Source of the DNA: a virus
Strand: one strand, 5' to 3'
Virus record (IMG/VR): IMGVR_UViG_3300007640_000075
Location: 1 to 39,927 of that record
Length of the DNA: 39,927 bases
The notes under the pieces: model-generated
The model's database searches: none
The model's input: only the letters and a program-made list of their open reading frames with translations
Told to the model about the DNA's origin: nothing
Position numbers and translations under genes: made by a program
Part shown: positions 9,532 to 39,927 of the stretch, in pieces
Layout: the number at the start of each line of letters is the position of its first letter
How positions within the stretch are numbered: position 1 is the first letter of the stretch

Positions 9532-10533
9532 TTACGCGGCGATGGCCGGAACCGCGGCCTCCGTGTTCAGCATCTGCTCGACGCGGCGCACGGGATCGCC
9601 GTCGAACATCAGCACCTTCTTGCCCGCCACGGTCTCCCAGGAGAGCTGGAACCCGATTTTCTCCAGGATGGCGAGGCGCAGCTTGGAGGCGGTGTTGCGG
9701 CTCATGTACCAAGCCCGCTTGCCGCTCGTGGTGCGAAGCTTCTCTTGCGCCTGGATCATCAGGGACACGAGGGCCTTGAGCTTGTTCACGTCGGAGGACA
9801 GGTCCGACACGTCGATGTTCGCGATGCGCACGATGTAGCGCCAATCGCGGATGCAGAGGCCGCAGCCCCAGCGGAAGTGATCCCGGTACGCCTCGTACCG
9901 CGAGCCGTCCGCAAGCTGGATCGTGTCGCGCCCGCGATCCTCGTGCTGCACGCCGCCGGGGATACCCTTGGGGTACAGGCCGAAGGCGTAGTCTTCGCCC
10001 CAGCACACGAGCCAGATCGAGGTGTTGTCCGCGCCCGTGCCGCCCGCGTCGATGACGTTCTCGGAGGTGCCGACGCCCGACAGCGCGTTGTACCGAGGGG
10101 CAAAGCCGGTGAACATCTGCGGAACCACATTCTGGTTGCCGTAGATGAGCGCCTGCTGCACCTGCTGGTTCATGCCTTCGAGGATGCCCTTGGCCTCGCC
10201 CAGCCGGAACTCACCCGGGTCGGGGGCGAGATCGACAAGCGCCTTGTCGGGCTCGCTGTAGTTTTCCAGCATGCCGACCGTATCACGCACCTGGGCCTTG
10301 GTGGTCTTCGAGGGCTGCACGCCCTGGTAGAGCATCCGCCACGTGCCGAACGGGATGCCGGTGCGGATGACCGTCTTGTGGCCGGTGCCGTCGTTGCATT
10401 CCATCCACGGAATGTCTTCCAGCATCTCGTTCTGCTGATTCAGGATCTCGATGACGCGCGCGTTGCCGGCAGACGTGCCGGCCCCCTTCGCGATGTCCGA
10501 CAGCGTGGATACCAGGGAACCGACGACGGCCAT
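9532..10533 (-). CDS. Major capsid protein (BPP-1 Bbp17-like)
   Basis: The 333-aa protein has the N-terminus of the BPP-1/Bcep22-type major capsid family: TLSDIAKG, a helix with EILNQQNEMLEDIPWMECNDG, then a GTWRMLYQGVQPSKTT strand. Known members assemble the icosahedral shell using an HK97-like, topologically permuted fold. It lies between a scaffold-like gene (upstream) and the cement gene (downstream). The central LIYGNQNVVPQMFTGFAPRYN and later RNTASKLRLAILEKIGFQ segments look like folded capsid core. No separate protease gene or proteolysis signal is visible. Confidence 0.85.
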   Translation of the reverse strand: MAVVGSLVSTLSDIAKGAGTSAGNARVIEILNQQNEMLEDIPWMECNDGTGHKTVIRTGIPFGTWRMLYQGVQPSKTTKAQVRDTVGMLENYSEPDKALVDLAPDPGEFRLGEAKGILEGMNQQVQQALIYGNQNVVPQMFTGFAPRYNALSGVGTSENVIDAGGTGADNTSIWLVCWGEDYAFGLYPKGIPGGVQHEDRGRDTIQLADGSRYEAYRDHFRWGCGLCIRDWRYIVRIANIDVSDLSSDVNKLKALVSLMIQAQEKLRTTSGKRAWYMSRNTASKLRLAILEKIGFQLSWETVAGKKVLMFDGDPVRRVEQMLNTEAAVPAIAA

Positions 10534-11434: not shown

Positions 11435-11699
11435 CGCTCAACAGCTCCGTGATGATTGCGAGGAACAGGCCGTTGTTCGCGGCCCGCATCTGATCGACCA
11501 GCGCGATTGCGGCCTCGTGCTTGCCGGCAGAGCGTTCACCGCCGACCGTCGAGAACAGCCCCAGATCGCGCAGGATGTAGCCGAGGACGCGCCGGCCCTC
11601 GTGCAGCGCCATGACCTTCTGCCACTCGGCCGACACCCGCAGGCGTTCCGCCTCGTCCGTCTCCGGGTCGGCGTAGAACTCGATCGGCTCAACCGCCAT
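11412..11699 (-). CDS. Bbp19-like small head-region protein
   Basis: The 95-aa protein lies between portal and scaffold genes and overlaps both (11 and 23 nt). The segment HEGRRVLGYILRDLGLFST followed by a helical AIALVDQMRAANNGLFLAII resembles Bbp19-type phage proteins (GRRVLxxLLRxxGxF pattern). Its function is unknown; position suggests head assembly. The match is from memory of the family pattern and could not be tested here. Confidence 0.6.
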   Translation of the reverse strand: MAVEPIEFYADPETDEAERLRVSAEWQKVMALHEGRRVLGYILRDLGLFSTVGGERSAGKHEAAIALVDQMRAANNGLFLAIITELLSDENPSQD

Positions 11700-13425
11700 A
11701 GGCCCCGGCCCCCATAAGCTGCCCGAGCATGCTCTGATCCGACACGGGCGTGTCGGCCAGAACCTTCGCGGTGTCCGCGCCCTGCTGGACTGCGGCAGCC
11801 GCCGCCGCGCCCTGCTGCGCCTTCTCCTTGGCCTTGCGGATCTCGCTCACCTTGTCGTCGGCCAGGACGACGCCGGGCGGGACGCCGGTCGCGTCCGCGT
11901 ATTCGTCCACCGCCTGATCGGCATCGAACTTGTCGGCCACGGACGGGAACACCGCCACGAGGTTGCCCACGAACCCGGCCATCCGCTCGATGCCCTGGAC
12001 CGCAACGGCGCGCTGCGCCTGGGCCAGCGTCGAGATGAATTGCACCTTCAGATCCGTGCCCTGAAGCTCCTTCGGCGCAGGCGGCAGGATGCCGGCCCGG
12101 TTCATGATCGCGAACGTGCGCGACACGGCCGGGTCGAGGTTTTCGTTATGCAGCCGTTCGATCACAGGGCCGAGGGCCAGAAGCTTTTCCTCGTGCCGCT
12201 CATCCACCTCGCGCGCCGTGATCTCGCGCCGGTCGGATTGCGACATCATCAGGAACAGGTCAGCGAAGTAGACCTCGCGAATCCTGTCCTCGCTCCGCTG
12301 GATCTCTGCGGCAATCGCCGTGATCGCGTCGGCGCGCATCTCGTACAGCGCCGAGATGACCGGCCGCCCCGAAGTGTCCATGCCCGAGACTGCGGTGTGC
12401 TGGCCGGCGCGGTTGCGGACCTTGATGCTGTCCGGCCCGCCCTGCGTCGGCGGGTTGGCGAGCTTGTCCACGATGATCTGCTTGCGGTTCTCCAAGAGCT
12501 GCAAGCCCTTTACATCGCCAAGCGCCTCGATGCCCGGCCCGGTCCCGTACACGTCATTGTCGCGCACCTCCCACCGCGGGGTGCAGCCCGGGAACTCGTG
12601 ACAGCCCTTGCATTCGAGCAGGCCGCGATCCTGCGAAGCCTTTACCTCGAAATGCACGCGCAGGAACGGCAGGCCGCGGGGGCCCGCCATGTCCGCAACC
12701 TGCTGCATGTTCGGCTCGATTGCCTCGCAGACCTGTATCATCTGATCGAAGTGTGAGTTGTCGTAGAGGTTGAGCACGTCTTGCGAGCAGCGCTTGCCCC
12801 ACTTTTGCACCATAGCGAGCACGGACATCTCGAACTCGCGATAGACGGTGGTGATCTCCCCGAACCCGTCCGCAGCGAGGTAGTATTCGCCTGGGCTGTA
12901 GACGTGGCACCGTATCACGTCGTCATAGTTTTCATCGATCATCATGCACGACGTGCCGAAGTCGCCCAGATCTCCGTAACCGGTGTGCAGGTTGTTGTAG
13001 ATGTTAGACCGCTGGAACACGGTCGCCATGCGTCGTGCCACTGTGGTCAGGTAGTCTTTCACCGCGCCGTTCTCGGCTAGATCCGGGTCGGGCGTGGTCA
13101 GCTTGAACCAGGGCCGGGCCGGGCTCGACGCGCCCGACTGCATGCCGGATCGCAGGGTGCGGCTCGCGATCGTGGCGGCCGTATTGATGATGTGTTCCGA
13201 CTGGCGTGCGGCTGACGGCGGGCGTCCGTTCTCCCAATAGCGCTTCTGACGCCGCGGGCGGATGTACCGGGCGACCGCCTCAACCTCGTAATCGTAGAAC
13301 GAGCGCAGGGACTTGAGCGACACGAGACGCTTGCGGAACGGATCGGCCGGCATCTCCATCATCATGAACGCCGGACGCGGCAGCGCCAGCCGCCGGGCCG
13401 CGTCTTTGTCTGGAACCTGCGCCAC
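11689..13425 (-). CDS. Portal protein (T7-type head-to-tail connector)
   Basis: This 578-aa protein has the features of the phage head-to-tail connecting protein family (PF12236): RLVSLKSLRSFYDYEVEAVAR near residue 35, then a Thr/Ala-rich helix with ASRTLRSGMQSGASSPARPWF, a central domain with HVYSPGEYYLAADGFGEI, and a C-terminal Ala/Gln-rich crown helix. The dodecameric portal sits at one capsid vertex, passes DNA during packaging and carries the tail. The length fits the family (about 530-600 aa). It follows small unrecognised structural genes and precedes the Bbp19-like, scaffold and capsid genes. Confidence 0.9.
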   Translation of the reverse strand: MAQVPDKDAARRLALPRPAFMMMEMPADPFRKRLVSLKSLRSFYDYEVEAVARYIRPRRQKRYWENGRPPSAARQSEHIINTAATIASRTLRSGMQSGASSPARPWFKLTTPDPDLAENGAVKDYLTTVARRMATVFQRSNIYNNLHTGYGDLGDFGTSCMMIDENYDDVIRCHVYSPGEYYLAADGFGEITTVYREFEMSVLAMVQKWGKRCSQDVLNLYDNSHFDQMIQVCEAIEPNMQQVADMAGPRGLPFLRVHFEVKASQDRGLLECKGCHEFPGCTPRWEVRDNDVYGTGPGIEALGDVKGLQLLENRKQIIVDKLANPPTQGGPDSIKVRNRAGQHTAVSGMDTSGRPVISALYEMRADAITAIAAEIQRSEDRIREVYFADLFLMMSQSDRREITAREVDERHEEKLLALGPVIERLHNENLDPAVSRTFAIMNRAGILPPAPKELQGTDLKVQFISTLAQAQRAVAVQGIERMAGFVGNLVAVFPSVADKFDADQAVDEYADATGVPPGVVLADDKVSEIRKAKEKAQQGAAAAAAVQQGADTAKVLADTPVSDQSMLGQLMGAGAYGG

Positions 13426-16211: not shown

Positions 16212-17765
16212 TCAGATCCCAACCTCTGGCCGATAGATACCATCGTCGTTATCGGACGATGATTCTCCCCGCAACTGCGCTCTCGTCTTGTCCACGTCTC
16301 TCGGGCCTACCGGCATAGCAAAGGTCAGAGCCAATCCATCGGCGCGATCGGGCGAGGCATGACCTCCGCCGCCCGTCCCTTCACGCTCGCGCATCTCGTC
16401 CTTGCTTTCGAGCATAATCTTGTTGTCTTTGTCGTAGAAATATTCTCGCGTCGTGAGCTGCGTTTGCAGCACGTCATCGTCTGGCACCGCGCCATTGTCT
16501 TCGAGCCAATCGCGCATCATCCCGTACATGTACGAGCCGCGGTTGCGGTACTTCAGATCAGGGGACTTGCCGCCGAACAGCACCGGGTGAACGTTGCGGA
16601 TTCCGAGCTGTATCAGCCGTTCCGGGACGCCAGCGCCCACCCCGCCGCCGTCGATAAAGATCGCGTCGGGCTGATCGATGAGGGCCAGTTCTGCGATCTT
16701 GCCGGCCACGTGCATCAGCCAGTCGCGGCGGTCGCTCTCTGGCCGCAGGATCAGCGGTTCGAGGGTGCGCGCGTCGTTGCCGCGCCGCCGGTAGATCGTG
16801 GTCTCGTCGCCGCCCTTGTGGCCGATGTCCACGCCGTAGATCACGGGCGAGGTGATGAGCGGGGCGGGCTCGCGACGGCGGGCCTTCTCGACGGCCCCGA
16901 TCGGGATGAACTGGTCCGTGCCCTGTGACGGGAACTCGCCGCGGATCTTCACGCGGATGTAATCGCTATCCTCGCCATAGGTCGCCACGTCCTGCGCAAG
17001 CTTGGCCTTGTTCGGGATCAGGGCCTCACGACTGTCCACCTTGAAGCAGCGGTACAGCTTCGAGATGCGCGGGTTCATGTGCGTGTCGAAGAAGTATCCG
17101 CTCGGCCGCGTCGCGTTGCCGAATAAGAATTGCATCGGCTCTCCATCCGTCAGGCCGCCGTCTTGCGTCTCGAAGATGTTGCGCTCGATCGCGGACGCCT
17201 CGTCGTTGATATAGAACGACGTGCTGTCCACCGCGTGCTGGCCGGCAAACGCCTCAGGCGTCTCTTTCCGCCACGGGATGGCATCCGTCCGCCACGTGGT
17301 CGGGTACTGCTTATGCACCATGCGCAGGGACCCGCGCGAGGCGTACAGGTTGAACCATCGGCCGGTCAGGCCGCGCTTGTGCCATTTCGCGATCTCGGCC
17401 CACGTCTTGGTCTCAAGCTGCGGCGACGAGTTGGCCGTGACGATGCCCTTCGAGTGCGGGCGCGTGGACATGATGAAGGCCACGATCCAGGCCACCAGAC
17501 CCGACTTGCCGACGCCGTGCCCGGCCCGCGTCGTGTAGCGCATCGGCATGACGGAGGCGGACCCATCGAACCCGCGGCTGCGGATGTCCTTCCCCCAGGC
17601 TTCGAGGAAATCGATTTGCCAGAGATCGGGGCCGTGGTGGTGCTCTAAGTCACCGTGACCCCAATGGTAGTTGAACAGCACGAAGCCGAGCGGGTTGTCG
17701 AACAGATCCGCCATGACGCCGGCCAATTCACGGTCGGCGTCGAAGGTCTCGAAGTTTGAGAGCAT
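16212..17765 (-). CDS. terL: Terminase large subunit (packaging ATPase and nuclease)
   Basis: The 517-aa protein is the DNA-packaging motor. The N-terminal ATPase has Walker A at residues 81-88 (AGHGVGKS, the RxGHGxGKS variant common in phages), and the Walker B/catalytic pair is D188-E189 in FYINDEAS. The C-terminal RNase H-like nuclease has acidic residues D313 (VDIGHKGGDE), D372 (IFIDGGGVGAG) and D476 (SPDRADGLAL). It abuts the tailspike gene without a gap. Unusually, the tailspike and two small genes separate it from the small subunit. Confidence 0.95.
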   Translation of the reverse strand: MLSNFETFDADRELAGVMADLFDNPLGFVLFNYHWGHGDLEHHHGPDLWQIDFLEAWGKDIRSRGFDGSASVMPMRYTTRAGHGVGKSGLVAWIVAFIMSTRPHSKGIVTANSSPQLETKTWAEIAKWHKRGLTGRWFNLYASRGSLRMVHKQYPTTWRTDAIPWRKETPEAFAGQHAVDSTSFYINDEASAIERNIFETQDGGLTDGEPMQFLFGNATRPSGYFFDTHMNPRISKLYRCFKVDSREALIPNKAKLAQDVATYGEDSDYIRVKIRGEFPSQGTDQFIPIGAVEKARRREPAPLITSPVIYGVDIGHKGGDETTIYRRRGNDARTLEPLILRPESDRRDWLMHVAGKIAELALIDQPDAIFIDGGGVGAGVPERLIQLGIRNVHPVLFGGKSPDLKYRNRGSYMYGMMRDWLEDNGAVPDDDVLQTQLTTREYFYDKDNKIMLESKDEMREREGTGGGGHASPDRADGLALTFAMPVGPRDVDKTRAQLRGESSSDNDDGIYRPEVGI

Positions 17766-20872: not shown

Positions 20873-20880
20873 TGGTCCCA
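20873..20880 (-). promoter_or_regulatory. Leader motif TGGGACCA, copy 1
   Basis: Exact core, 11 nt upstream of the ATG at 20861. The context is TGTTGGGACCACGGGACG. No clear -35 box is found 35 nt upstream of the GGG. Confidence 0.55.
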
Positions 20881-23988: not shown

Positions 23989-24219
23989 ATGTACCGATTC
24001 GATGAGACCCGCCTTGCGGGTAGCGAACCCGTGCGCGCGGATTGGGCGATGTCGCCCCGGCTGCACGACGACGTGCCCCTGATCGTGGTGCGCGATCCCC
24101 CGGCCGATATCGACCGCTTGTTGAGCCCAGCCCCGTCCGTGTGGTCGGAATGGTTGTTCTGGGGCTCGATCGCCGCAGTCCTCGCGGTTGGCGTCACCGG
24201 CCTTTGCGGAGGGCTCTAG
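23989..24219 (+). CDS. Small protein with a C-terminal membrane helix
   Basis: The 76-aa protein (ATG 23989) has a soluble N-terminal part (MYRFDETRLAGSEPVRADW) and ends with one transmembrane helix (LFWGSIAAVLAVGVTGL), i.e. a tail-anchored topology. It shares one base with the primase start (TAGTG). Function unknown. Confidence 0.65.
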   Translation: MYRFDETRLAGSEPVRADWAMSPRLHDDVPLIVVRDPPADIDRLLSPAPSVWSEWLFWGSIAAVLAVGVTGLCGGL

Positions 24220-26723
24220 TGACATGGCAGGCTCGCCGCGGGACCGAGACGCACAGAGCGGGGCGCGCCGTGGCGAGCTTTGACGCCGACCAGATCCGGC
24301 GGGACAACCCGTTGGCGGAATACCTCGCCAAGCGGGGCGTGGTGCTCCGCAAGAACGGGCAGGAGTGGACGGGCTGCTGCCCGTTCCACGCCGAGGACAC
24401 GCCTTCGTTCACCGTCTACCCGGGTCGGAACGGGCATCAGCAGTTCCATTGCTTCGGCTGCGACGCCAAGGGCGATGTGATCGGGTTCGTGGAGCGGTGG
24501 GACAGCACCGACTTCAAGGGCGCGTGCGAGATCCTGGGCGGCGAGCGCGAGGCCACAGTGGGGCTCAAGCCCGCGCCGCCGGCCGCGCCCGCCGTGGACA
24601 TCTATGCCGCCTGGACGGCGAGGCTGCCGGGCGAGGACGCGCCGCCGATCGAATCCGGCGAGCGAACGCCGATGATCGTCAACCCGAAGCGGCCCGACCG
24701 CCCGTCGCCGCGCTACACCCCGACCGCGGTCTATCCCTACCGGATGAGCGACGGCCGCCTGATCGGCTACGTCCTGCGCGTCGAGATCAAGGGCCGCAAG
24801 CTCACGCCGCTGATCCTGTGGTGCCAGCACGCCGAGACCGGCGAGCTGACGTGGTGCCACCGGCCGTTCACCGGGCCGAGGCGGCTGTACAATCTGCCGG
24901 CCTTCGCCGCCCGCCCAGACGCCCAGGTGCTCGTGGTCGAGGGGGAGAAGTGCGCCGACGCCGCCGCGCGGCTGCTGCCGAAGGCGGTCGCGACGACGTG
25001 GCAGGGCGGGGGCAAGGCGGTCGGAAAATCCGATTGGAGCCCCGTCAGGGGCCGTGACGTTCTGATCTGGCCCGACAATGACGCCGAAGGGCTCAAGGCC
25101 GCCCAGGAGGCCGGCAGGCTCGCCAGCGAGGCCGGCGCGGCCCGTGTCCGGATCATCGACCCGCCGCAGGACGCGGCCCCGGTCGGTTGGGACATCGCGG
25201 ATGCGGAGGCTGAGGGCTGGGACAAGGCCCGCGTGCTGGCCTACGCGAAAGCCAGGGCTCGGCCGTGGCGGGACGCGCCCGACACCACCACGACCGAGCC
25301 GCCGGCCGCCACGAGCGAGGAGCGGCGGTCTGATGAACCGCCCCCCGAGCAGCGGGGCGAGCGCAAGACGGAGACGAAGCCCGCGCTCAAGCCACTGTCC
25401 CAGGAGAAGGCAGAGGAAGATCCGCAGCGCAAGGCCGCGAACGTGGTCCCGATTCGGAAGGTGCGGGACAACTCCGACGACTGGATGCGGCACCTAGAGC
25501 TGGACCAGAACAACCGGCCCATCCCGAAGATCATGACCAACATCGTCGGGTATCTACAGCACCACCCGGCGATGGTGGGCGTGATCGCCAAGGACGTGTT
25601 CGCGAACCAGATCGTGCTGACCAAGCGCCCGCCCTGGGACAAGTCGCCCGGCGAGTGGCAACCGCGCCAGATCATCGACGCCGATGCGGTCGCGGCCGTG
25701 AAGTGGCTGGACCGGCCGGGCATGAAAACCGGCGTCGCCAACGTCAACGCCGCGATCACGCTCGTTGCCGAGGAAAACAAATACGACCCGGCGCTCGAAT
25801 ACTTCGAGGCGCTGAAATGGGATGGCATCCCGCGGCTGCACACCGGGCCGGACGGCCGCTCGTTCCTCGAACGCTACATGGGCGCGAAGCCGACCAGCAG
25901 CGGCATCGAGCGCGCGTTCGGCATGCGCTGGCTGATCTCGGCCGTGTCGCGGAACCTCACGGAGGAGCGGGCCGGCGAGAAGGTGGACACCATGCTCGTG
26001 CTCGAAGGCCGGCAAGGCATGATGAAATCGACCGCCCTCGAAGTGCTGGCGACCCTGGGCAAGCATCGGTTCTTCACGTCGGGGGTCAACGACATCGCGT
26101 CGAAAGACGGCATCATGCAGATGCAGGGGTCCGTCATCGTGGAATTCGATGAGTTGTCCGCGATCAACAAGGCGGATACGGAGACGATCAAGGGGTTCCT
26201 GTCGCGCCGGGTCGATAAGATCCGCCTGCCCTATGAGCGCCAGCCCGTGAACCTGCCGCGCCGGTTCGTCTGCGCCGGCACCATGAACCCGCGCGGTCTG
26301 GGCTACCTGAAGGACCCGACCGGCGCGCGCAGGTTCTGGCCGGTATTCGTGCAGCAGCCGGCAGACATCGAGGCCCTGGCCGCGGATCGCGATCAGCTCT
26401 GGGCCGAGGCCGTCCACCTCTATCGGATCGGGGAGCCGTGGTGGTTGCAGGGCGATGAAGTCGCCCACGCCGAAGTCGAGCAGCGCAAGCGGTTCCAGGC
26501 CGACCCATGGGCCGACTTGCTTGACGAGTGGCTGGCGACCGTCGTCGGGCCGATCACAGTCTCGACAGCATTCCGTATGCTCAACGTGCCGATGCATCTA
26601 CGCACTGATGCAGCGCAACAAAGGATCTTGGGGCATCTCGTGGCTAACGGCTACGTACGTACTGTGAAGAAGCACGGCAACGGCAAGCTCACAGTCTTCG
26701 TGAAGGCCGACGCGCATGGCTGA
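24219..26723 (+). CDS. Primase-helicase: CHC2 zinc finger, Toprim and VapE ATPase
   Basis: This 834-aa protein probably primes and unwinds phage DNA. Start GTG 24219 has GGAGG 6 nt upstream; a later GTG at 24270 is possible. Residues 20-105 are a CHC2-type zinc-binding domain (C54, H57, C78, C81). Residues 235-330 are a Toprim domain (E241 in VVEGEK, D286 and D288 in WPDND). A charged linker (350-405) leads to a VirE/VapE-type P-loop ATPase (about 520-760) with Walker A G597-S604 (GRQGMMKS) and Walker B D644-E645 (VEFDELS). VapE domains are common in phages, satellites and plasmids as replicative helicases. The plus operon continues with a 77-aa gene overlapping its end by 8 nt. Confidence 0.9.
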   Translation: MTWQARRGTETHRAGRAVASFDADQIRRDNPLAEYLAKRGVVLRKNGQEWTGCCPFHAEDTPSFTVYPGRNGHQQFHCFGCDAKGDVIGFVERWDSTDFKGACEILGGEREATVGLKPAPPAAPAVDIYAAWTARLPGEDAPPIESGERTPMIVNPKRPDRPSPRYTPTAVYPYRMSDGRLIGYVLRVEIKGRKLTPLILWCQHAETGELTWCHRPFTGPRRLYNLPAFAARPDAQVLVVEGEKCADAAARLLPKAVATTWQGGGKAVGKSDWSPVRGRDVLIWPDNDAEGLKAAQEAGRLASEAGAARVRIIDPPQDAAPVGWDIADAEAEGWDKARVLAYAKARARPWRDAPDTTTTEPPAATSEERRSDEPPPEQRGERKTETKPALKPLSQEKAEEDPQRKAANVVPIRKVRDNSDDWMRHLELDQNNRPIPKIMTNIVGYLQHHPAMVGVIAKDVFANQIVLTKRPPWDKSPGEWQPRQIIDADAVAAVKWLDRPGMKTGVANVNAAITLVAEENKYDPALEYFEALKWDGIPRLHTGPDGRSFLERYMGAKPTSSGIERAFGMRWLISAVSRNLTEERAGEKVDTMLVLEGRQGMMKSTALEVLATLGKHRFFTSGVNDIASKDGIMQMQGSVIVEFDELSAINKADTETIKGFLSRRVDKIRLPYERQPVNLPRRFVCAGTMNPRGLGYLKDPTGARRFWPVFVQQPADIEALAADRDQLWAEAVHLYRIGEPWWLQGDEVAHAEVEQRKRFQADPWADLLDEWLATVVGPITVSTAFRMLNVPMHLRTDAAQQRILGHLVANGYVRTVKKHGNGKLTVFVKADAHG

Positions 26724-27043: not shown

Positions 27044-27233
27044 CTGGGCTAAGCAGTCCTCGCGCTTTATTTAACATACAGCAGCGTTGCATGGGTTCAT
27101 CACGCCCGCACGTGCCCGAAAGGGTACGCCCTTGAATGACATCTTGACGATTGTTCTTGAAGCGCCCGCAAGGGTCGGTTTAGTCTTTCGGGCATCGCTT
27201 CCAGAATTACACAGCCTTACGGGCAGATCTGAA

Positions 27234-27875
27234 TTGCGGACGATCCTCTACGCGCGCGTCTCCACGGTCGAGCAGACCATTGCGCATCAGGAGGCGCAGG
27301 CGCGCGCCGCCGGCTTCGAGATTGACGAGGTGGTGGCCGACGACGGCGTGTCCGGCGTGAGCGTGCCGCTGGCCGAGAGGCCGCAGGGCCGCCGGCTCTT
27401 CGACATGCTGCGAGCCGGCGACGTGCTCGTGGTGCGCTGGATCGATCGTCTGGGCCGCAACTATGCCGACGTGACCGATAACGTCCGCAAGCTGATCGCA
27501 CGCGGCGTGACGATCCGCACCGTGATCAACGGCCTGACCTTCGACGGCACGGCGACCGACCCGATGCAGATGGCCGTCAGAGACGCGATGCTCGGGTTCA
27601 TGGCCGCCATGGCCCAGGCGCAAGGGGAGGTCACGCGCGAGGCGCAGCGGGCCGGCATCGCCCACGCCAGGGCCGACCAGGCGAAGTACCGCGGCCGGAA
27701 ACCCGCCTACAGCCGCGAGCAGCTCGACACGGTGTTGGCGCAGCTCGCGTCCGGCGTCGGGCTCTCCGAGGCCGGCAGGGCGGCCGGGATGTCCCGGCAG
27801 GCGGTCTACCGGATTCGCGAGGACATGGCCTCCGCGATGGCCGCCCTGAAGCGATGGGAGAAAGAGCCCCGATAG
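27234..27875 (+). CDS. Serine resolvase/invertase
   Basis: This 213-aa small serine recombinase probably resolves genome multimers. The catalytic Ser is S10 in ILYARVSTVEQ, with R8 and the DRLGRN motif (R72, R75) completing the active site; a C-terminal helix-turn-helix (GLSEAGRAAGMSRQAVYRI) binds DNA. I chose TTG 27234 because family members begin two to five residues before the first strand; an upstream ATG at 27087 would add 49 residues without family likeness. The size excludes a large serine integrase. Convergent with the partition pair and adjacent to an iteron block, it fits a plasmid-type dimer-resolution role. Confidence 0.85.
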   Translation: MRTILYARVSTVEQTIAHQEAQARAAGFEIDEVVADDGVSGVSVPLAERPQGRRLFDMLRAGDVLVVRWIDRLGRNYADVTDNVRKLIARGVTIRTVINGLTFDGTATDPMQMAVRDAMLGFMAAMAQAQGEVTREAQRAGIAHARADQAKYRGRKPAYSREQLDTVLAQLASGVGLSEAGRAAGMSRQAVYRIREDMASAMAALKRWEKEPR

Positions 27876-27900
27876 ACCGATGCACCGATAGACCGAAATC
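27869..27900. repeat. Four 8-bp iterons between resolvase and partition genes
   Basis: Contiguous octamers CCGATAGA, CCGATGCA, CCGATAGA, CCGAAATC. The first contains the resolvase stop codon. The same CCGAtNNN octamer is repeated six times upstream of parA (28813-28860), so this block may be a second partition-complex binding site. Confidence 0.65.
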
Positions 27901-27902
27901 GG

Positions 27903-28139
27903 TCAGTAGCCCTTCGCCCGCAGGTATGCGGTCAGGGCGGCGTCAACCACGGCCTGCATCTTAACGTCAGTGTCGGCCGCCATCTTGCGAATCGCCCGGT
28001 AGTGCGCCTGCCGCACGTAGAGCGACAGCTTGCGCCGGGCGTTCGGATCGTCGGGCAGCGGGGCTGGCGCGTCTGCCGGCTCCGGAGCGTCCGCCTCGAT
28101 CGGCGCGATGTCGCCCAGCCTACCGCGCGCCCGGCTCAT
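27903..28139 (-). CDS. Ribbon-helix-helix partition protein (ParG-like)
   Basis: The 78-aa protein overlaps the parA stop by 4 nt (ATGA). The N-terminal 35 residues are flexible and Ala/Pro/Asp-rich; the C-terminal part RRKLSLYVRQAHYRAIRKM then AVVDAALTAYLRAKG is a ribbon-helix-helix DNA-binding domain. In type Ib partition systems such a dimer binds short centromere repeats, represses its own operon and stimulates the ATPase through its flexible N-terminus. Gene order (ATPase first, small RHH second) and flanking 8-bp iterons fit this model. The partner role is inferred from context. Confidence 0.72.
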   Translation of the reverse strand: MSRARGRLGDIAPIEADAPEPADAPAPLPDDPNARRKLSLYVRQAHYRAIRKMAADTDVKMQAVVDAALTAYLRAKGY

Positions 28140-28810
28140 GCCGACACCTTCGCGGCGAGCCCGAGCTTGCCCCGCGTCCAGTCCCACACCGCGCGGAACT
28201 CATCGACCGCGCGCTGTTCCGCGTCGGTCAATCCCGATATCTCGAAAACGGTTTGCCCCGATATCAGCGTTTCGGGAATTACCGATTTCTGGTGGATCAC
28301 CACGTCGAGCACCGGCAGTCGCGAGGCGTTCAGGTATTCGATTGCCTCGCGCTCTGGGCGCGCGGTGTTTGTCACGGCGGCCGACACCACCACGGCGAAG
28401 GGCACTTTGCTCCCGCGCATAAGCTGGATGAACGGCGGCAGGGCCTTGATGTCGTCGGCGGTCGGCCGCATCGGCACGAGCACGAGATCGGCCGCCTTCG
28501 CGGCGTTGAGCGCGATCGGCCCGTTGAGCGAGCCCGGCGTATCGATGAACACGACTTCGGTGCCGCGGGCCTTGAGGCCGGCGAGGGCGGCGAACAGGTG
28601 GCGCTCGTTCGGGGACAGCTCGACGTGGACGTGCGGCGCGCCGTGGCCCTGCTTGGCCCGCGTGTCGCCCCAGTCGCGGCAACCGCCCTGCTGGTCCGTG
28701 TCGAGGATCGCCGCCGCGTACCCTTCGCGATGGGCCGCGACGGCGAGGTGCCGGCAGAGCGTCGTTTTCGACGCCCCGCCCTTCTGGCTGGCTATGGTTA
28801 CGACCCGCAT
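28136..28810 (-). CDS. parA: ParA-family partition ATPase
   Basis: The 224-aa protein has the deviant Walker A motif QKGGASKTTL (signature Lys at K10 and K15), A' motif with D37 and D39 (ILDTDQQG), and Walker B ending at D90 (VVFIDTPG). It lacks the N-terminal helix-turn-helix of long ParA proteins, which places it with short (type Ib, ParF-like) partition ATPases that rely on a small DNA-binding partner. That partner is encoded next with a 4-nt overlap. Six iterons start 3 nt before its ATG. Its presence in a podovirus genome implies stable maintenance as an extrachromosomal plasmid. Confidence 0.88.
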   Translation of the reverse strand: MRVVTIASQKGGASKTTLCRHLAVAAHREGYAAAILDTDQQGGCRDWGDTRAKQGHGAPHVHVELSPNERHLFAALAGLKARGTEVVFIDTPGSLNGPIALNAAKAADLVLVPMRPTADDIKALPPFIQLMRGSKVPFAVVVSAAVTNTARPEREAIEYLNASRLPVLDVVIHQKSVIPETLISGQTVFEISGLTDAEQRAVDEFRAVWDWTRGKLGLAAKVSA

Positions 28811-28812
28811 TT

Positions 28813-28860
28813 ACCGATTCTCCGATGCACCGACGAGCCGATACACCGATGCACCGATAT
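28813..28860. repeat. Six 8-bp iterons upstream of parA: candidate centromere/operator
   Basis: Contiguous octamers CCGATTCT, CCGATGCA, CCGACGAG, CCGATACA, CCGATGCA, CCGATATG. All share CCGA at the same phase, and two are identical. The position directly before parA and the octamer period suit binding by ribbon-helix-helix dimers, both as parS and as autoregulatory operator. Confidence 0.78.
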
Positions 28861-29018
28861 GCGGAAGAGAGCGGATGCCCCCTCTGCCGTCGTTTCAGGG
28901 CGCCGCGAAGGGCCTGAAAACGGCCTCGCCCCTCAATCTGCCCCACATTCTGCGCGGCCTGAACGGATGCCGCCGGCCGAGCCTTCGCGCTCTGTCACCG
29001 CCTCGACGTTGTGGGCGA
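28861..29018. promoter_or_regulatory. Region upstream of parA with inverted and direct repeats
   Basis: No gene is seen. It contains TTTCAGG (28893-28899) facing CCTGAAA (28913-28919), and TGCCCCACATTC (28939-28950), a 12-bp direct repeat of the same sequence at 29035-29046. The latter copy pairs with ATGTGGGG (29021-29028) as a perfect 8-bp inverted repeat at the end of the zinc-protein gene. These may regulate parA or end the upstream transcript; the U-tract is poor. Confidence 0.4.
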
Positions 29019-29559: not shown

Positions 29560-29952
29560 CTAGATCAGCACCGGGCCAAGGGCGGCAACGCCGTCCTCGA
29601 CGTTCTTGACCACGGCCGCGTACCCGCCGGCCTCGCGCACAGCCCGCACGAATGCGGCCTGCTCGTCCGTGGTCGGCACGCCCGGCGTCTTCACCTCCAA
29701 CGCCGTGAAAACCGCGACGCGGCGACCAACCATGTCCGCCGTCACCACGACCGGTGTCCAGCCGATGATGTCGCTGGACCCCTTACACAGGCCCGCGTGT
29801 AGCGGCCTGGGGTTGGCAAGAGTGACCGTCTCGGCCGTCTTGCGCACGATCCGCCCGACCCAGCCCAGGCCCACGTTCTGACGGAACAGCCTAGCCCCTT
29901 GCTTCGACGCTGCCTTGAGCAGCGGATTGGTGATGTCTCTCTCGCTCATCAT
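29560..29952 (-). CDS. VRR-NUC domain nuclease
   Basis: This 130-aa stand-alone VRR-NUC protein belongs to the PD-(D/E)XK fold, with D61 in KGSSDIIGW and E86-x-K88 in ALEVKTPG. Such small phage nucleases are thought to cleave branched DNA, working with helicases. The start is ATG 29952 (a second ATG follows at 29949), 15 nt after a TGGGACCA leader. It lies 27 nt downstream of the helicase gene, consistent with a shared recombination or DNA-processing role. Confidence 0.85.
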   Translation of the reverse strand: MMSERDITNPLLKAASKQGARLFRQNVGLGWVGRIVRKTAETVTLANPRPLHAGLCKGSSDIIGWTPVVVTADMVGRRVAVFTALEVKTPGVPTTDEQAAFVRAVREAGGYAAVVKNVEDGVAALGPVLI

Positions 29953-29967
29953 CGCCTCTGTCTGGTT

Positions 29968-29975
29968 TGGTCCCA
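29968..29975 (-). promoter_or_regulatory. Leader motif TGGGACCA, copy 6
   Basis: Exact core in GTTGGGACCAAACCAGACAG, 15 nt before the VRR-NUC ATG. It sits between helicase stop and nuclease start. No -35 box was found, and the extended match to copy 5 argues for a functional element. Confidence 0.55.
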
Positions 29976-29979
29976 ACCA

Positions 29980-31449
29980 CTACCAGCGCTTCTGTGCAGC
30001 TGCTTGTTCTTCCACCCTCCTGTTACGCGCAGTCCAAAGATGCGCCGCCCACTCGACAGGTTTCGCGTAGCCGCGCGCCTTGCCGACCTTCACGAGATCT
30101 TCGACGCTGTTGCACTCTTTCTCCTGTTGCGCCCGGAACGCCCGCAGCGCGGCCTTATCGACCGGCTGCAACTGGTCCTCCGTCTCTTCCGGCATCCGGC
30201 CTTCCTTGACCGGGTACGGCTCGCCGCAGAAGTCGCACGCCGGCTTGTTCGCGGCGGCCGTGGCGAAGCAGTTCGGGCAGACCTTGATCGGCGCGGCCTC
30301 AATATCGACGGGCTTGCGCTTCTTGGCCTTCGCCCGCGGCGCGAGCTGCCATTCACGGTCGTCATCCGGCAGGCCGTGGGTCAGCAGGTTGCCGGCATGG
30401 TCGAGGATGATCGCCGGGCTGTCCTTCGGCCGCAGCGCCCGGCCGACCTGCTGCATGTACATCGCGAGCGACTTCGTGGGTCGGGCCATGCCCACGCACT
30501 CGATCGTCACGTCTTGCCCGGCCTGGGCGGCGAGGTCATAGCCCTCACCGAACAGATTGACATTGCAGATAACGTCAAGCTCACCCATTGCCATTGATCG
30601 AGCAGCGGAGCGGCGAACGTCAGAAGGATCACTCCCGTCCAAGTGAACAGCAGTGACGCCAGCAGCCCGGAAAGCCCCGGCGACGTGCTGCGAATGCGCA
30701 ATACTAACGCAGAAGTAAACAGCGCGTTTGCCAGCAGCCAAGCGCCGATAATGTGCCACCATGTCCCCAACCAAAACATCGGTGTTCATCTCCTCTTCCA
30801 GTTCCTCCGCTTTGTAATCTCCTGCGCGCGTCGAGAGCGACGCGAGATCTGGGACGCTCGGCGCGAACGCCTCGTACCGCGACAGAAACCCTTGCTCGAT
30901 CAGCCAAGCGAGCGTCGGCCCACGCACGATGTCCCCGAACAGCTCATCGAGCCCTTTGCGGTCGAGCCGTTCCGGCGTGGCCGACAGGCCGATGATCTTC
31001 GAGCCGCGCGTCTTCGCCCAATTGATGATCCGCGCCCAGGTGGGCGAGCAGGCGTGATGCCCCTCGTCCACGAAGATCACGGACGGCGCGCACTCGGCCG
31101 GCACGCGGTCGAGGCGCGACTTCAGGGTATCGATCCCGCAGACTTGGGCAGGGGCGTACGGATTCCATCGCCTGCCGGCCGCGATGAACGCATGTTCCAC
31201 GCCCACGCGGTCGAGCGTCTTGCTCGTCTGATCCACGAGGAAATCCCGATGGCACACGAACCAGGGGCGTCCGCCCTTGGCTACGGCCGACTGCATCATG
31301 AACGACGACAGCACCGTCTTGCCGCCGCCGGTCGGGAGCTGCACGAGCACCGCGTCATGAACCCGGAGCTTGGCGCGGGTCTCTTGCACCATATCGGCTT
31401 GGAACGGGCGCAGCTCGATCGCTTGCGCCTTCGGTATAAACAGGCTCAC
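29980..31449 (-). CDS. SF2 DEAD/H-type helicase with C-terminal zinc finger
   Basis: The 489-aa helicase starts at GTG 31449, which overlaps the HTH gene stop (GTGA) and has GGAGG 6 nt upstream. Motif I is PTGGGKT (39-45), motif II DEGH (128-131), motif III SATPERLD (156-163), and motif VI QQVGRALRP. A zinc finger CPNC...CDFC near residue 395 follows. This RecG/UvsW-type architecture is common in phage replication and recombination modules. The longer frame to 31503 is excluded by the overlap. Confidence 0.9.
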   Translation of the reverse strand: MSLFIPKAQAIELRPFQADMVQETRAKLRVHDAVLVQLPTGGGKTVLSSFMMQSAVAKGGRPWFVCHRDFLVDQTSKTLDRVGVEHAFIAAGRRWNPYAPAQVCGIDTLKSRLDRVPAECAPSVIFVDEGHHACSPTWARIINWAKTRGSKIIGLSATPERLDRKGLDELFGDIVRGPTLAWLIEQGFLSRYEAFAPSVPDLASLSTRAGDYKAEELEEEMNTDVLVGDMVAHYRRLAAGKRAVYFCVSIAHSQHVAGAFRAAGVTAVHLDGSDPSDVRRSAARSMAMGELDVICNVNLFGEGYDLAAQAGQDVTIECVGMARPTKSLAMYMQQVGRALRPKDSPAIILDHAGNLLTHGLPDDDREWQLAPRAKAKKRKPVDIEAAPIKVCPNCFATAAANKPACDFCGEPYPVKEGRMPEETEDQLQPVDKAALRAFRAQQEKECNSVEDLVKVGKARGYAKPVEWAAHLWTARNRRVEEQAAAQKRW

Positions 31450-31781
31450 CTTCGCGCCTCCAAGAATTGACCGGTCGGGAGAGCTTGCCCGCAGCAGGGG
31501 CAAACCTGACCGTCGAGGATGTCGTGCAGAAGGGACCGGGAGATCTTGTTAGCGTCGCAGGCTTCAACGATGCGTTGATTGTACTGCGGCGGGATGTTGC
31601 CGAAGTTGCCGCGCTTGCCCGTGCTGTTCCAGCGCGAGATGACGGCGGGGCTCACTCCGATGGCGGCGGCCAAGTTCTTGTTACCGCCGTTGTTCTTGAC
31701 GGTGTTCGTCTTGGCGCGCCAGTCGCACAGCTCTGTTTTGTCTGCGAACAGCGCGCAGAGCTTGTCCACTCTCGTGGTCAT
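31446..31781 (-). CDS. HTH regulator, candidate repressor of the early region
   Basis: The 111-aa protein (ATG 31781) has a Cro/CI-like helix-turn-helix at about residues 35-60 (NLAAAIGVSPAVISRWNST). Residues 94-97 are CPCC, possibly metal-binding. It is the first gene of the minus operon that continues into the helicase, and its promoter region contains the GTTGAC inverted repeat shared with the divergent recombination operon. This makes it the best candidate to bind that operator and control both sides, but nothing in the sequence proves it. Confidence 0.75.
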   Translation of the reverse strand: MTTRVDKLCALFADKTELCDWRAKTNTVKNNGGNKNLAAAIGVSPAVISRWNSTGKRGNFGNIPPQYNQRIVEACDANKISRSLLHDILDGQVCPCCGQALPTGQFLEARR

Positions 31782-31794
31782 CGTCGTCGTCCTT

Positions 31795-31802
31795 TGGTCC
31801 CG
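31795..31802 (-). promoter_or_regulatory. Leader motif CGGGACCA, copy 7
   Basis: One-base variant, 13 nt before ATG 31781. The TTGACG box of the operator lies 35 nt upstream of its first G, with a modest -10 (TAGCAA), so transcription may begin at the GGG. Confidence 0.6.
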
Positions 31803-31821
31803 TGTCGTTGCTAACACGCCG

Positions 31822-31836
31822 TTGACACCGCGTCAA
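31822..31836. promoter_or_regulatory. Operator-like TTGAC-N5-GTCAA in the divergent helicase/recombination promoter
   Basis: Perfect 5-bp arms with spacer ACCGC, nested inside CACGC (31815-31819) and GCGTG (31840-31844). On the plus strand it starts with TTGACA and on the minus strand TTGACG, so it provides the -35 box of both divergent promoters. A single repressor dimer could switch off both operons. Confidence 0.65.
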
Positions 31837-31854
31837 AAAGCGTGATGATGGGGG

Positions 31855-31862
31855 TGGGACCG
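31855..31862 (+). promoter_or_regulatory. Leader motif TGGGACCG, copy 8
   Basis: One-base variant, 13 nt before ATG 31876. Its first G lies 34 nt after the -35 TTGACA, and GATGAT at 31844-31849 could serve as -10. It mirrors copy 7 across the shared operator. Confidence 0.6.
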
Positions 31863-31875
31863 AACGAGAGCTACC

Positions 31876-32010
31876 ATGTACGTTGTGCGATGGCACGAGC
31901 GTGCGTCAGAGTATTCATGCGAATACTGGACGCTAGATGAAGCTGTGCACCATGTGCGTGAGTTATTGCTCTCCCGTATTCCTGCATACGTGGAGCACCG
32001 CAAGCAATGA
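31876..32010 (+). CDS. 44-aa first gene of the recombination operon
   Basis: The short frame (ATG 31876) encodes MYVVRWHERASEYSCEYW, TLDEAVHHVRELLLSR and a basic end (VEHRKQ). It follows the leader motif and overlaps the exonuclease start by 4 nt (ATGA), which supports expression. No family was recognised. Confidence 0.6.
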   Translation: MYVVRWHERASEYSCEYWTLDEAVHHVRELLLSRIPAYVEHRKQ

Positions 32011-37815: not shown

Positions 37816-37894
37816 CGGTGTCTCGCGTTGTCCCAACAACACGAGAACCGTACATACACCGATCGGTTGATGCAACACCTTTTGGTGCGGCGCT
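37816..37894 (-). promoter_or_regulatory. Control region of the lysis-region operon, with leader copy 12
   Basis: Read on the minus strand it contains TTGCAT-N17-TACGGT as a possible promoter, a 10-bp palindrome ACCGATCGGT in the spacer (its CACCGAT resembles the parA iterons), and a variant leader core TGGGACAA (37828-37835) 12 nt before ATG 37815. The giant virion gene ends at its right side. Confidence 0.45.
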
Positions 37895-39927
37895 CTACTG
37901 ATCGCGCGTGTCCCCGAACGCCCGGCGCGAGAACAGCAGATCGCGCGTCTTGAAGTCGCCTTGCTCCAAGCCCTGCCACACGTTGGACGCCGTGCCGACG
38001 CCCTGACCGAGCGGCAGACCGAAGGTGTAGCCGGCAAGCTCGGCGGCGCGCTTCGCCATGAGCCGGCCTTCCACATCCTCGCCGCGAGCGAGCTTATTGC
38101 CGTCCTGCACGAGACGTGTGGCAAGCTCGCCGAACCGGGCGAGCGGCGACATCTGGTAGGCGAGCCCGCTATCGAGCGCGCCGCCAATGTCGCGCACGAG
38201 CGGCAGGGACATCATCGGGTAGAGCGACGCCTTGCGGAACGCCCACCACGCCCAGCCCTCATCGTCGTCCTTCCATTTGCCCACGAGCGCGTCGGCCATG
38301 ATCGCCGGCACGATGACGAGGAACACGGATCGCGCGAGCAGATGCGGGATGTCCTCGTATTCGCCGTCACGCATCATAATCCGGGTATCCCGGCCGAGCG
38401 CGCGCAACCTGTTATAGTACAGGTTAAAGTACGAGTAGAACATCGTGTAGACTTGCAGGGCTTCGTTTTTGTTGCCCATGATTGAGGAAAGATCTTTAGC
38501 CGCGCCGGACCCCTGCGTCAGGCGCACCGCCCGGTCGCCCGACCGCACCGCGCCGGCCTCGTCGCCGGGATAGGTCGCGAGGTGCTGATTGTACGCACCC
38601 AGCCACGTCGGCATAACCACGGCCCGATCAGCCATGGCGGTGCCCCAGAACGCGAATTGCTTGAACCGATCGACCGCGCCCGTCTTGCCCTCAAGCCTCG
38701 CCAGGGCCGCCCGCACGTCCCGGTCGAGGTTGTTCGTCCGGTCCCTCATCTCCCCAGACTTCGAGGAGATGGCGTCCCACGTTTCGATAGGGTGCCGGAC
38801 GCTCGCCGCCAGCGCTCCACCCATGAACGACGGCTTGACCAACTCCATCGCGTTCGACCATCCGGCAAGCTGTGACAGCGCCGTCGTCAGCCTGAACCCC
38901 ATCGCATACAGGGAGATGTTCGCTCTCGCCCCCGACAGCATGCGCGCGATCGAGGCGTTCGCCGGGGGCTCCCCCCTGTCCTTCGCGATCCTGTCCAGCC
39001 ATTTGTACATCTCCTGGTAGACCGGCCGACCCATCGTCTCGATCAGGGTCCGCTGTAGCGTCGGGTCAGAGATCAGCTTGAGCGTGTCGCGTACCGGCTC
39101 CCGGTGGGTGATATTCTGGATCGCCTTGTCGATATGGCCGGTTAACGCGCGCAGATCCAAAAGGATCGGCCGCGCATAGTTATCGACCCGTTGCTTGGTG
39201 AACCCATGCGCGACCGCGGGCCGGGAGAAGGTGGAGTTGTCGAACGCCGAATCCAAGTCCTTGTCGGCGCGCTGCTGCACGTCGAACGCCTGGGCCGGGT
39301 CGTAGACGATCGGGTAATACCCGCCGGCATACTCCCCGAACGCCGTCTGCACCTTGCGCCGTTCGAGCTTGGGCGGCTCCACGCCGGTCAGCCGCCGTTC
39401 CAGCGCGGCCGTCTCGGGCCAGAAGCTTTCGAGCACGTCCCACATGGATTGCACCCGGTCCCAATCCTCCTTCGTGAGCAGCGACAAGGCGCTGTTCATC
39501 TCGTCCTCGCCGCGGAACGAGTTGGTCGCGGAGGTCTCGCCCTTGAGGATCTTCTGCCGGTTGCTCTCCGTCCCCTGGTTGAGCGCGATGGCGTACAGCT
39601 CCGAGCGCAGGAACGACAGTTCGGGCCGGGCCGGCACCGCCTTGCGCTCGTTCAGATAGCCGGGGTCGAGGCCGTCCAAGATCTCTTTCAGCTTTGCCGA
39701 TACGGCAAGCTGCATCTCGCTCTTGCGGTTCTGAGCATCCACGAATTTCTGGAAGATCACGCGCGTGAACGGGCCGTTGACATCGCCCATGTCGAGCCAG
39801 TCGAACACCTGTTCCATCTTCAACAGGTACGCATCGACGCCTTCGACGCTGTTCTTGAACCGGTCCCAGGCGGTGGCGTTGCGGTACTTCTGCTTCGCTT
39901 TGGGCGGCGTCTTTGCGGCCTGGGCCA
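37895..39927 (-). CDS. Giant polyvalent virion protein, C-terminal part (cut by the right edge)
   Basis: The frame stays open to the window edge; 676 residues are visible. An internal TTG at 39823 is not a convincing start, since coding continues upstream (KYRNATAWDRFKNSVEG). The sequence is mostly helical, with GGYYPIVYDP near the middle, the segment RLTTALSQLAGWSNAMELVKP, YTMFYSYFNLYYNRLRALGRD and one hydrophobic helix (SVFLVIVPAIMADALVG). This resembles the C-terminal region of large phage polyvalent proteins (LPD38-like), which are injected or line the ejection path. It is probably the end of the gene whose start is at the left edge. Confidence 0.72.
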   Translation of the reverse strand, partial: AQAAKTPPKAKQKYRNATAWDRFKNSVEGVDAYLLKMEQVFDWLDMGDVNGPFTRVIFQKFVDAQNRKSEMQLAVSAKLKEILDGLDPGYLNERKAVPARPELSFLRSELYAIALNQGTESNRQKILKGETSATNSFRGEDEMNSALSLLTKEDWDRVQSMWDVLESFWPETAALERRLTGVEPPKLERRKVQTAFGEYAGGYYPIVYDPAQAFDVQQRADKDLDSAFDNSTFSRPAVAHGFTKQRVDNYARPILLDLRALTGHIDKAIQNITHREPVRDTLKLISDPTLQRTLIETMGRPVYQEMYKWLDRIAKDRGEPPANASIARMLSGARANISLYAMGFRLTTALSQLAGWSNAMELVKPSFMGGALAASVRHPIETWDAISSKSGEMRDRTNNLDRDVRAALARLEGKTGAVDRFKQFAFWGTAMADRAVVMPTWLGAYNQHLATYPGDEAGAVRSGDRAVRLTQGSGAAKDLSSIMGNKNEALQVYTMFYSYFNLYYNRLRALGRDTRIMMRDGEYEDIPHLLARSVFLVIVPAIMADALVGKWKDDDEGWAWWAFRKASLYPMMSLPLVRDIGGALDSGLAYQMSPLARFGELATRLVQDGNKLARGEDVEGRLMAKRAAELAGYTFGLPLGQGVGTASNVWQGLEQGDFKTRDLLFSRRAFGDTRDQ

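Follow-up and report, generated by a model that had tools for sequence, protein, structure and literature searches.

Partition genes have been described before in podoviral phage-plasmids. For the Ochrobactrum podovirus POI1126, replication of the prophage as a plasmid has been demonstrated, and two adjacent partition-like genes are present; this phage is 60 kb in length, is related to Bcep22 and has a putative integrase (PMC5492332). JC1, a Bcep22-like phage, integrates (PMC9144972). Circular phage genomes encoding ParA have also been described from glacial viromes, where they were proposed to be phage-plasmids and contain toxin–antitoxin genes (PMC4490671). The DNA analysed here, referred to as the window, is the whole IMG/VR record IMGVR_UViG_3300007640_000075 (39,927 bases). 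No toxin–antitoxin genes were recognised in the window, and its phage is smaller than POI1126 with no integrase found. The best matches of its large terminase subunit (TerL; 16212–17765, minus strand) fall in another group than POI1126, the closest being Cobetia phage Carin1 and Pseudomonas phage HU1 at about 43–44%.

The window contains a plasmid-type partition cassette. This resembles ParF/ParG of TP228, par2 of pB171 and the ribbon-helix-helix (RHH) system of pSM19035 in having a short ParA, a small partner (predicted to be of RHH type in the window) and short contiguous repeats as centromere, those of the window being a candidate. In pB171 the sites flank the par genes on both sides. The pSM19035 centromere requires at least four contiguous heptads (PMC9499535). 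The window differs from these type Ib systems in that 8-bp ACCGATRC repeats lie on both sides of the genes with a further candidate set inside parA, and in that its partner has no match to the Pfam ParG family (PF09274). Given a partition cassette and no recognisable integrase, the window phage probably persists as a small circular plasmid. The best reading, for which we estimate a probability of roughly three in four for the window phage itself, is of a podovirus whose lysogenic state is a circular plasmid of low copy number.

Partition genes and iterons

The window parA gene (28136–28810, minus strand) encodes a short Walker-type partition ATPase of 224 amino acids. The protein has a deviant Walker A box (motif KGGASKTT) and lacks an N-terminal HTH extension. 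The short ParA reported in the first-pass annotation is confirmed by matches to PF01656 (E 4e-11) and to phrog_164, a ParA-like partition protein (E 8e-36), with ParF of plasmid TP228 as the closest solved sequence; against NCBIfam ParA_partition it scores 140 bits, under the 180-bit cut-off. The predicted centromere-binding partner (ParB/ParG-like, 78 amino acids; 27903–28139, minus strand) begins in an ATGA at 28136–28139 that also holds the parA stop, giving a 4-nt overlap. This overlap had been noted previously and stands, together with an RHH assignment that is best treated as a prediction. The C-terminal pattern of the partner is typical for RHH proteins, and weak profile matches were obtained to phrog_17990 and PrgO, as was a weak hhalign match to a protein annotated as the RHH partner of ParA on a Paracoccus plasmid. 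An AlphaFold model from a three-row alignment consists of a single helix (pTM 0.34), does not show the RHH fold and was set aside. Overall, the cassette is related to the type Ib (ParF/ParG-like) cassettes of plasmids.

A ParA scan of GTDB contigs gave a match in Methylobacterium goesingense DSM 21331 (contig NZ_BPQL01000048.1, 50 kb). At this locus ParA is 71% and the partner 59% identical to the window proteins, the two genes overlap by 4 nt and the same iteron core is found on both sides of the par genes. No phage genes were recognised in the 20 kb examined, and no resolvase was found beside the locus. A second cassette of this type is present in a phage contig, G001 (ParA 87–89%, partner 73%, both arrays). 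The window, G001 and M. goesingense share the catalytic motifs, the 4-nt overlap and an iteron array on either side.

The arrays of 8-bp iterons on both sides of the partition pair are as first described. Upstream, six 8-bp-phased units with the consensus ACCGATRC (28806–28865) form an array that is a candidate centromere and operator. Downstream there are four 8-bp units (27869–27904) ending in ACCGAAATCGGT. Three phased CCGA units occur seven times in the window against an expectation of 0.03, and six of these occurrences lie in the two arrays. Both arrays are kept in G001 and M. goesingense; the upstream one has fewer units in both, and in G001 the downstream one is shorter as well.

The 3′ part of parA contains a further conserved stretch of DNA (28208–28297, approximately codons 174–197), which includes two copies of CCCGATATC and one ACCGAT, all of them iteron-like cores. 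These codons are nearly identical at the DNA level in the window, G001 and M. goesingense, and in the best 66-base stretch the window and M. goesingense agree at 63 positions. Among codons whose amino acid does not differ between the three genes, 18 of 23 are identical inside the element versus 42 of 123 outside it (scan-corrected permutation p about 0.01; pairwise comparisons gave weaker corrected results). PLSDB contained no copy of this element. The conservation suggests that codons 174–197 contain a cis element, which would be a candidate third site.

Serine recombinase, genome content and the missing part

The small serine recombinase (27234–27875, plus strand; 213 amino acids) belongs to the resolvase/invertase family, and its earlier description as a small serine resolvase is upheld by a catalytic N-terminal domain (PF00239, E 1e-28) and a C-terminal HTH_7 domain, both over cut-off. 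The gene adjoins the downstream iteron array on the opposite strand from parA and its partner. Direct and inverted repeats (TGCCCGAAAG / CTTTCGGGCA) upstream of the gene (27113–27225) may represent a res site, and the predicted role of the enzyme is probably the resolution of multimers. A role as an invertase of a segment was also considered and rejected, as no long inverted repeat pair flanks the tail genes. The recombinase is absent from G001, where about 240 bases occupy its slot instead, and from every other relative. It is an addition separate from the ParA–partner–iteron unit.

The closest sequences to the recombinase are those on the M. nodulans plasmids pMNOD06/07 (66% identity), and on Paracoccus plasmid p9 a recombinase, parA and an RHH gene lie side by side. 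These plasmids and the M. goesingense locus together point to a plasmid origin of the cassette and to a Methylobacterium-like host. The cassette would therefore have come from a plasmid, and the host is probably Methylobacterium or a relative, although both statements are derived from sequence comparison. In the collection of papers searched, none dealt with phage-plasmids of Methylobacterium. Plasmids that share partition sites are known to be incompatible, and the iteron core of M. goesingense is the same as that of the window. The cassette might accordingly serve mainly to displace resident plasmids with the same iterons rather than to stabilise the phage. This is a very unlikely function, as iterons alone would suffice for it and a full parA–partner pair would be unnecessary.

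It is similarly improbable that the prophage integrates, at an unrecognised site, through the small serine recombinase or through host recombinases. A serine recombinase is indeed present, and among the profiles it matches is one named integrase (phrog_95). However, at 213 amino acids it is without the long C-terminal part of the large serine integrases, it is missing from G001 and it is closest to recombinases of plasmids. A plasmid prophage also agrees with the searches for other integrases in the window and nine relatives, which found no tyrosine integrase and no serine recombinase besides the small resolvase of the window. No tRNA that could provide an att site was found in the window.

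The ends of the window contig have no repeats and the contig is not circular, so the absence of an integrase called for a test of the missing part by synteny. The window covers 39.9 kb of a genome estimated at ~44.5 kb, leaving ~4.5 kb. One contig end cuts a giant gene, of which the 3′ part is present (37895–39925, minus strand; phrog_9880, profile of 2231 amino acids). Five relatives cover the gap, and in all of them the two ends of the window fall 4.5–5.7 kb apart inside one ORF of 2,107–2,578 amino acids (the G007 frame runs across the contig end and was read on the rotated contig). From this synteny the missing ~4.5 kb would be the rest of the giant gene. The earlier remark that no integrase was seen would therefore extend to the missing part, which is giant-gene coding sequence in each covering relative. 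The giant gene directly follows the transglycosylase virion gene, and is also seen in relatives G003–G007.

The remainder of the window encodes a podovirus structural and packaging set, with the major capsid protein (9532–10533, minus strand), the portal or head-to-tail connecting protein (11689–13425, minus strand), tail proteins and the transglycosylase virion protein, as well as both terminase subunits, an endolysin and a holin. The replication and recombination set consists of a CHC2 primase–VapE helicase protein (24042–26723, plus strand), a VRR-NUC nuclease and a ResIII-type helicase (29560–31503, minus strand), a DUF3799 PDDEXK-like protein and RecT. The replication protein had been described as CHC2-Toprim-VapE; CHC2 and VapE are recognised by Pfam, the Toprim part by profile overlap only, and the true start is probably downstream of the listed TTG. 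A Cro/YdaS-like HTH regulator (31446–31817, minus strand), divergent from the DUF3799–RecT operon, has sub-threshold family matches only, and no confident lysogeny repressor was found in the window. Weak operator-like repeats are present at 31780–32010.

The heptamer TGGGACC is located 7–24 bases before the ATG of an ORF of at least 40 amino acids in 11 of its 13 occurrences in the window, while shuffled heptamers used as a control gave a mean of 1.1 and a maximum of 6. These 11 copies are at 20874, 21333, 23071, 23970, 26986, 29969, 31855, 33842, 34307, 37328 and 39457, with a variant at 37828; the copy at 39457 lies within the giant gene. The heptamer often occurs as GTTGGGACCA, and sometimes within a small hairpin. 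Its placement is similar in G001 (6/8), and not in most of the relatives lacking par. It may be a phage-wide leader, operator or promoter start.

Relatives with and without partition genes

Close relatives of the window phage (TerL 74–92%) carry parA in G001 only, G002 to G007 being without it, although G002, G003 and G006 are partial contigs. With the window included, the cassette is found in two of eight close phages. In G004, G005 and G007 the two contig ends are identical over 123–127 bases, so that these are probably complete circles; these three apparently complete circular relatives have no parA, integrase or serine recombinase. In relatives that cover the interval from VapE to VRR-NUC, it is either short or occupied by other small genes. 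Since neither parA nor an integrase or serine recombinase is found in these close relatives, the cassette is best described as an insertion, with the VRR-NUC nuclease and the helicase as its right-hand neighbours. Among 19 wider relatives an integrase is present in seven and ParA (by phrog_164) in none. The par cassette is not fixed in the phage lineage. Of the plasmid-stability module proposed in the first-pass annotation all the parts are present, but as a variable insertion with a separately added resolvase.

A search for the window TerL across the family to which M. goesingense belongs (397 GTDB genomes) identified a more distant relative, contig C4 of a Beijerinckiaceae genome, G320 (TerL 44–46%, VapE homologue 44%). 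C4 is 45,008 bp in length with 127-bp identical ends, and is read as a circle since identical ends this long are typical of assembler overlaps. It is syntenic with the window, most of whose genes have homologues there in matching order, including the Cro/YdaS-like regulator (43% identity). C4 encodes a ParA (NF041546, 264 bits) and a partner of the ParG family (PF09274), both over cut-off. The two ParA proteins share 24% identity and the cassettes are regarded as unrelated; that of C4 is near the lysis genes, a different site from that in the window. No match to PF00589 (tyrosine integrase) was found on C4, against 16 elsewhere in the G320 genome, and the contig of more than 4.5 Mb with five 16S genes and two other large contigs are all separate from C4. 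As assembled, C4 is a separate circular extrachromosomal replicon with its own par cassette, and provides the strongest evidence for the lifestyle of the window phage. The search for circular relatives that had been advised thus yielded a syntenic circle with its own ParA/ParG, although no plasmid with the C4 backbone was found in PLSDB. C4 also encodes a sigma-70-family (ECF-like) factor (L146:3061-3576) adjoining a Cro-like regulator and a helicase; a factor of this type was not recognised in the window.

The backbone may be virulent, since parA and an integrase are both missing from most close relatives. The window phage could itself be virulent, with ParA and its partner as an accidental passenger or one otherwise used, for genome positioning in lytic growth or gene regulation. 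That most close relatives are without both the cassette and a recognised lysogeny gene would fit such a phage, as would the want of a clear repressor in the window. Conservation of the catalytic motifs, the 4-nt overlap and both arrays across the window, G001 and M. goesingense argues against it, as does the existence of the par-bearing C4 as a separate circular replicon, and we consider virulence unlikely.

Probable plasmid lysogeny and its meaning

Lysogeny as an extrachromosomal plasmid, suggested when the window was first annotated, is supported for the window phage by the circular C4 and by the searches, in which neither an integrase nor an integrated close relative was found (limited scans). 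Neither the bacterial genomes scanned nor PLSDB yielded a lysogen of the window phage or of a close relative, these scans being few and partly shallow; a terminase scan of GTDB contigs with two short patterns only gave no relative. In the proposed mechanism the type Ib-related cassette would have entered the phage genome with the replication gene on one side and the VRR-NUC/helicase operon on the other. The CHC2-VapE protein would replicate the phage circle, the partner would bind the ACCGATRC iterons beside parA and, via the upstream array, probably also repress the par promoter, and the serine recombinase would resolve multimers. The direction of cassette transfer and each biochemical role are inferences.

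We tentatively propose, at somewhat less than even odds, that podoviruses of this lineage, closely alike in their virion genes, differ by gain or loss of plasmid partition cassettes, inserted independently at different sites in the window and G001 compared with C4. A non-integrating backbone would then shift, through cassette exchange, from a mainly lytic life to that of a plasmid prophage or back. This patchy and apparently repeated gain of plasmid cassettes is the less ordinary part of the finding, and provides an example, at the level of sequence, in which short-tailed phages of one lineage have repeatedly gained modules for plasmid segregation while close relatives are without them. Methylobacterium-type hosts are indicated as a place to test the plasmid prediction. 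The results also suggest that when a bacterial assembly contains a 45-kb circular podovirus genome without an integrase, this can be a plasmid prophage and not contaminating lytic phage.
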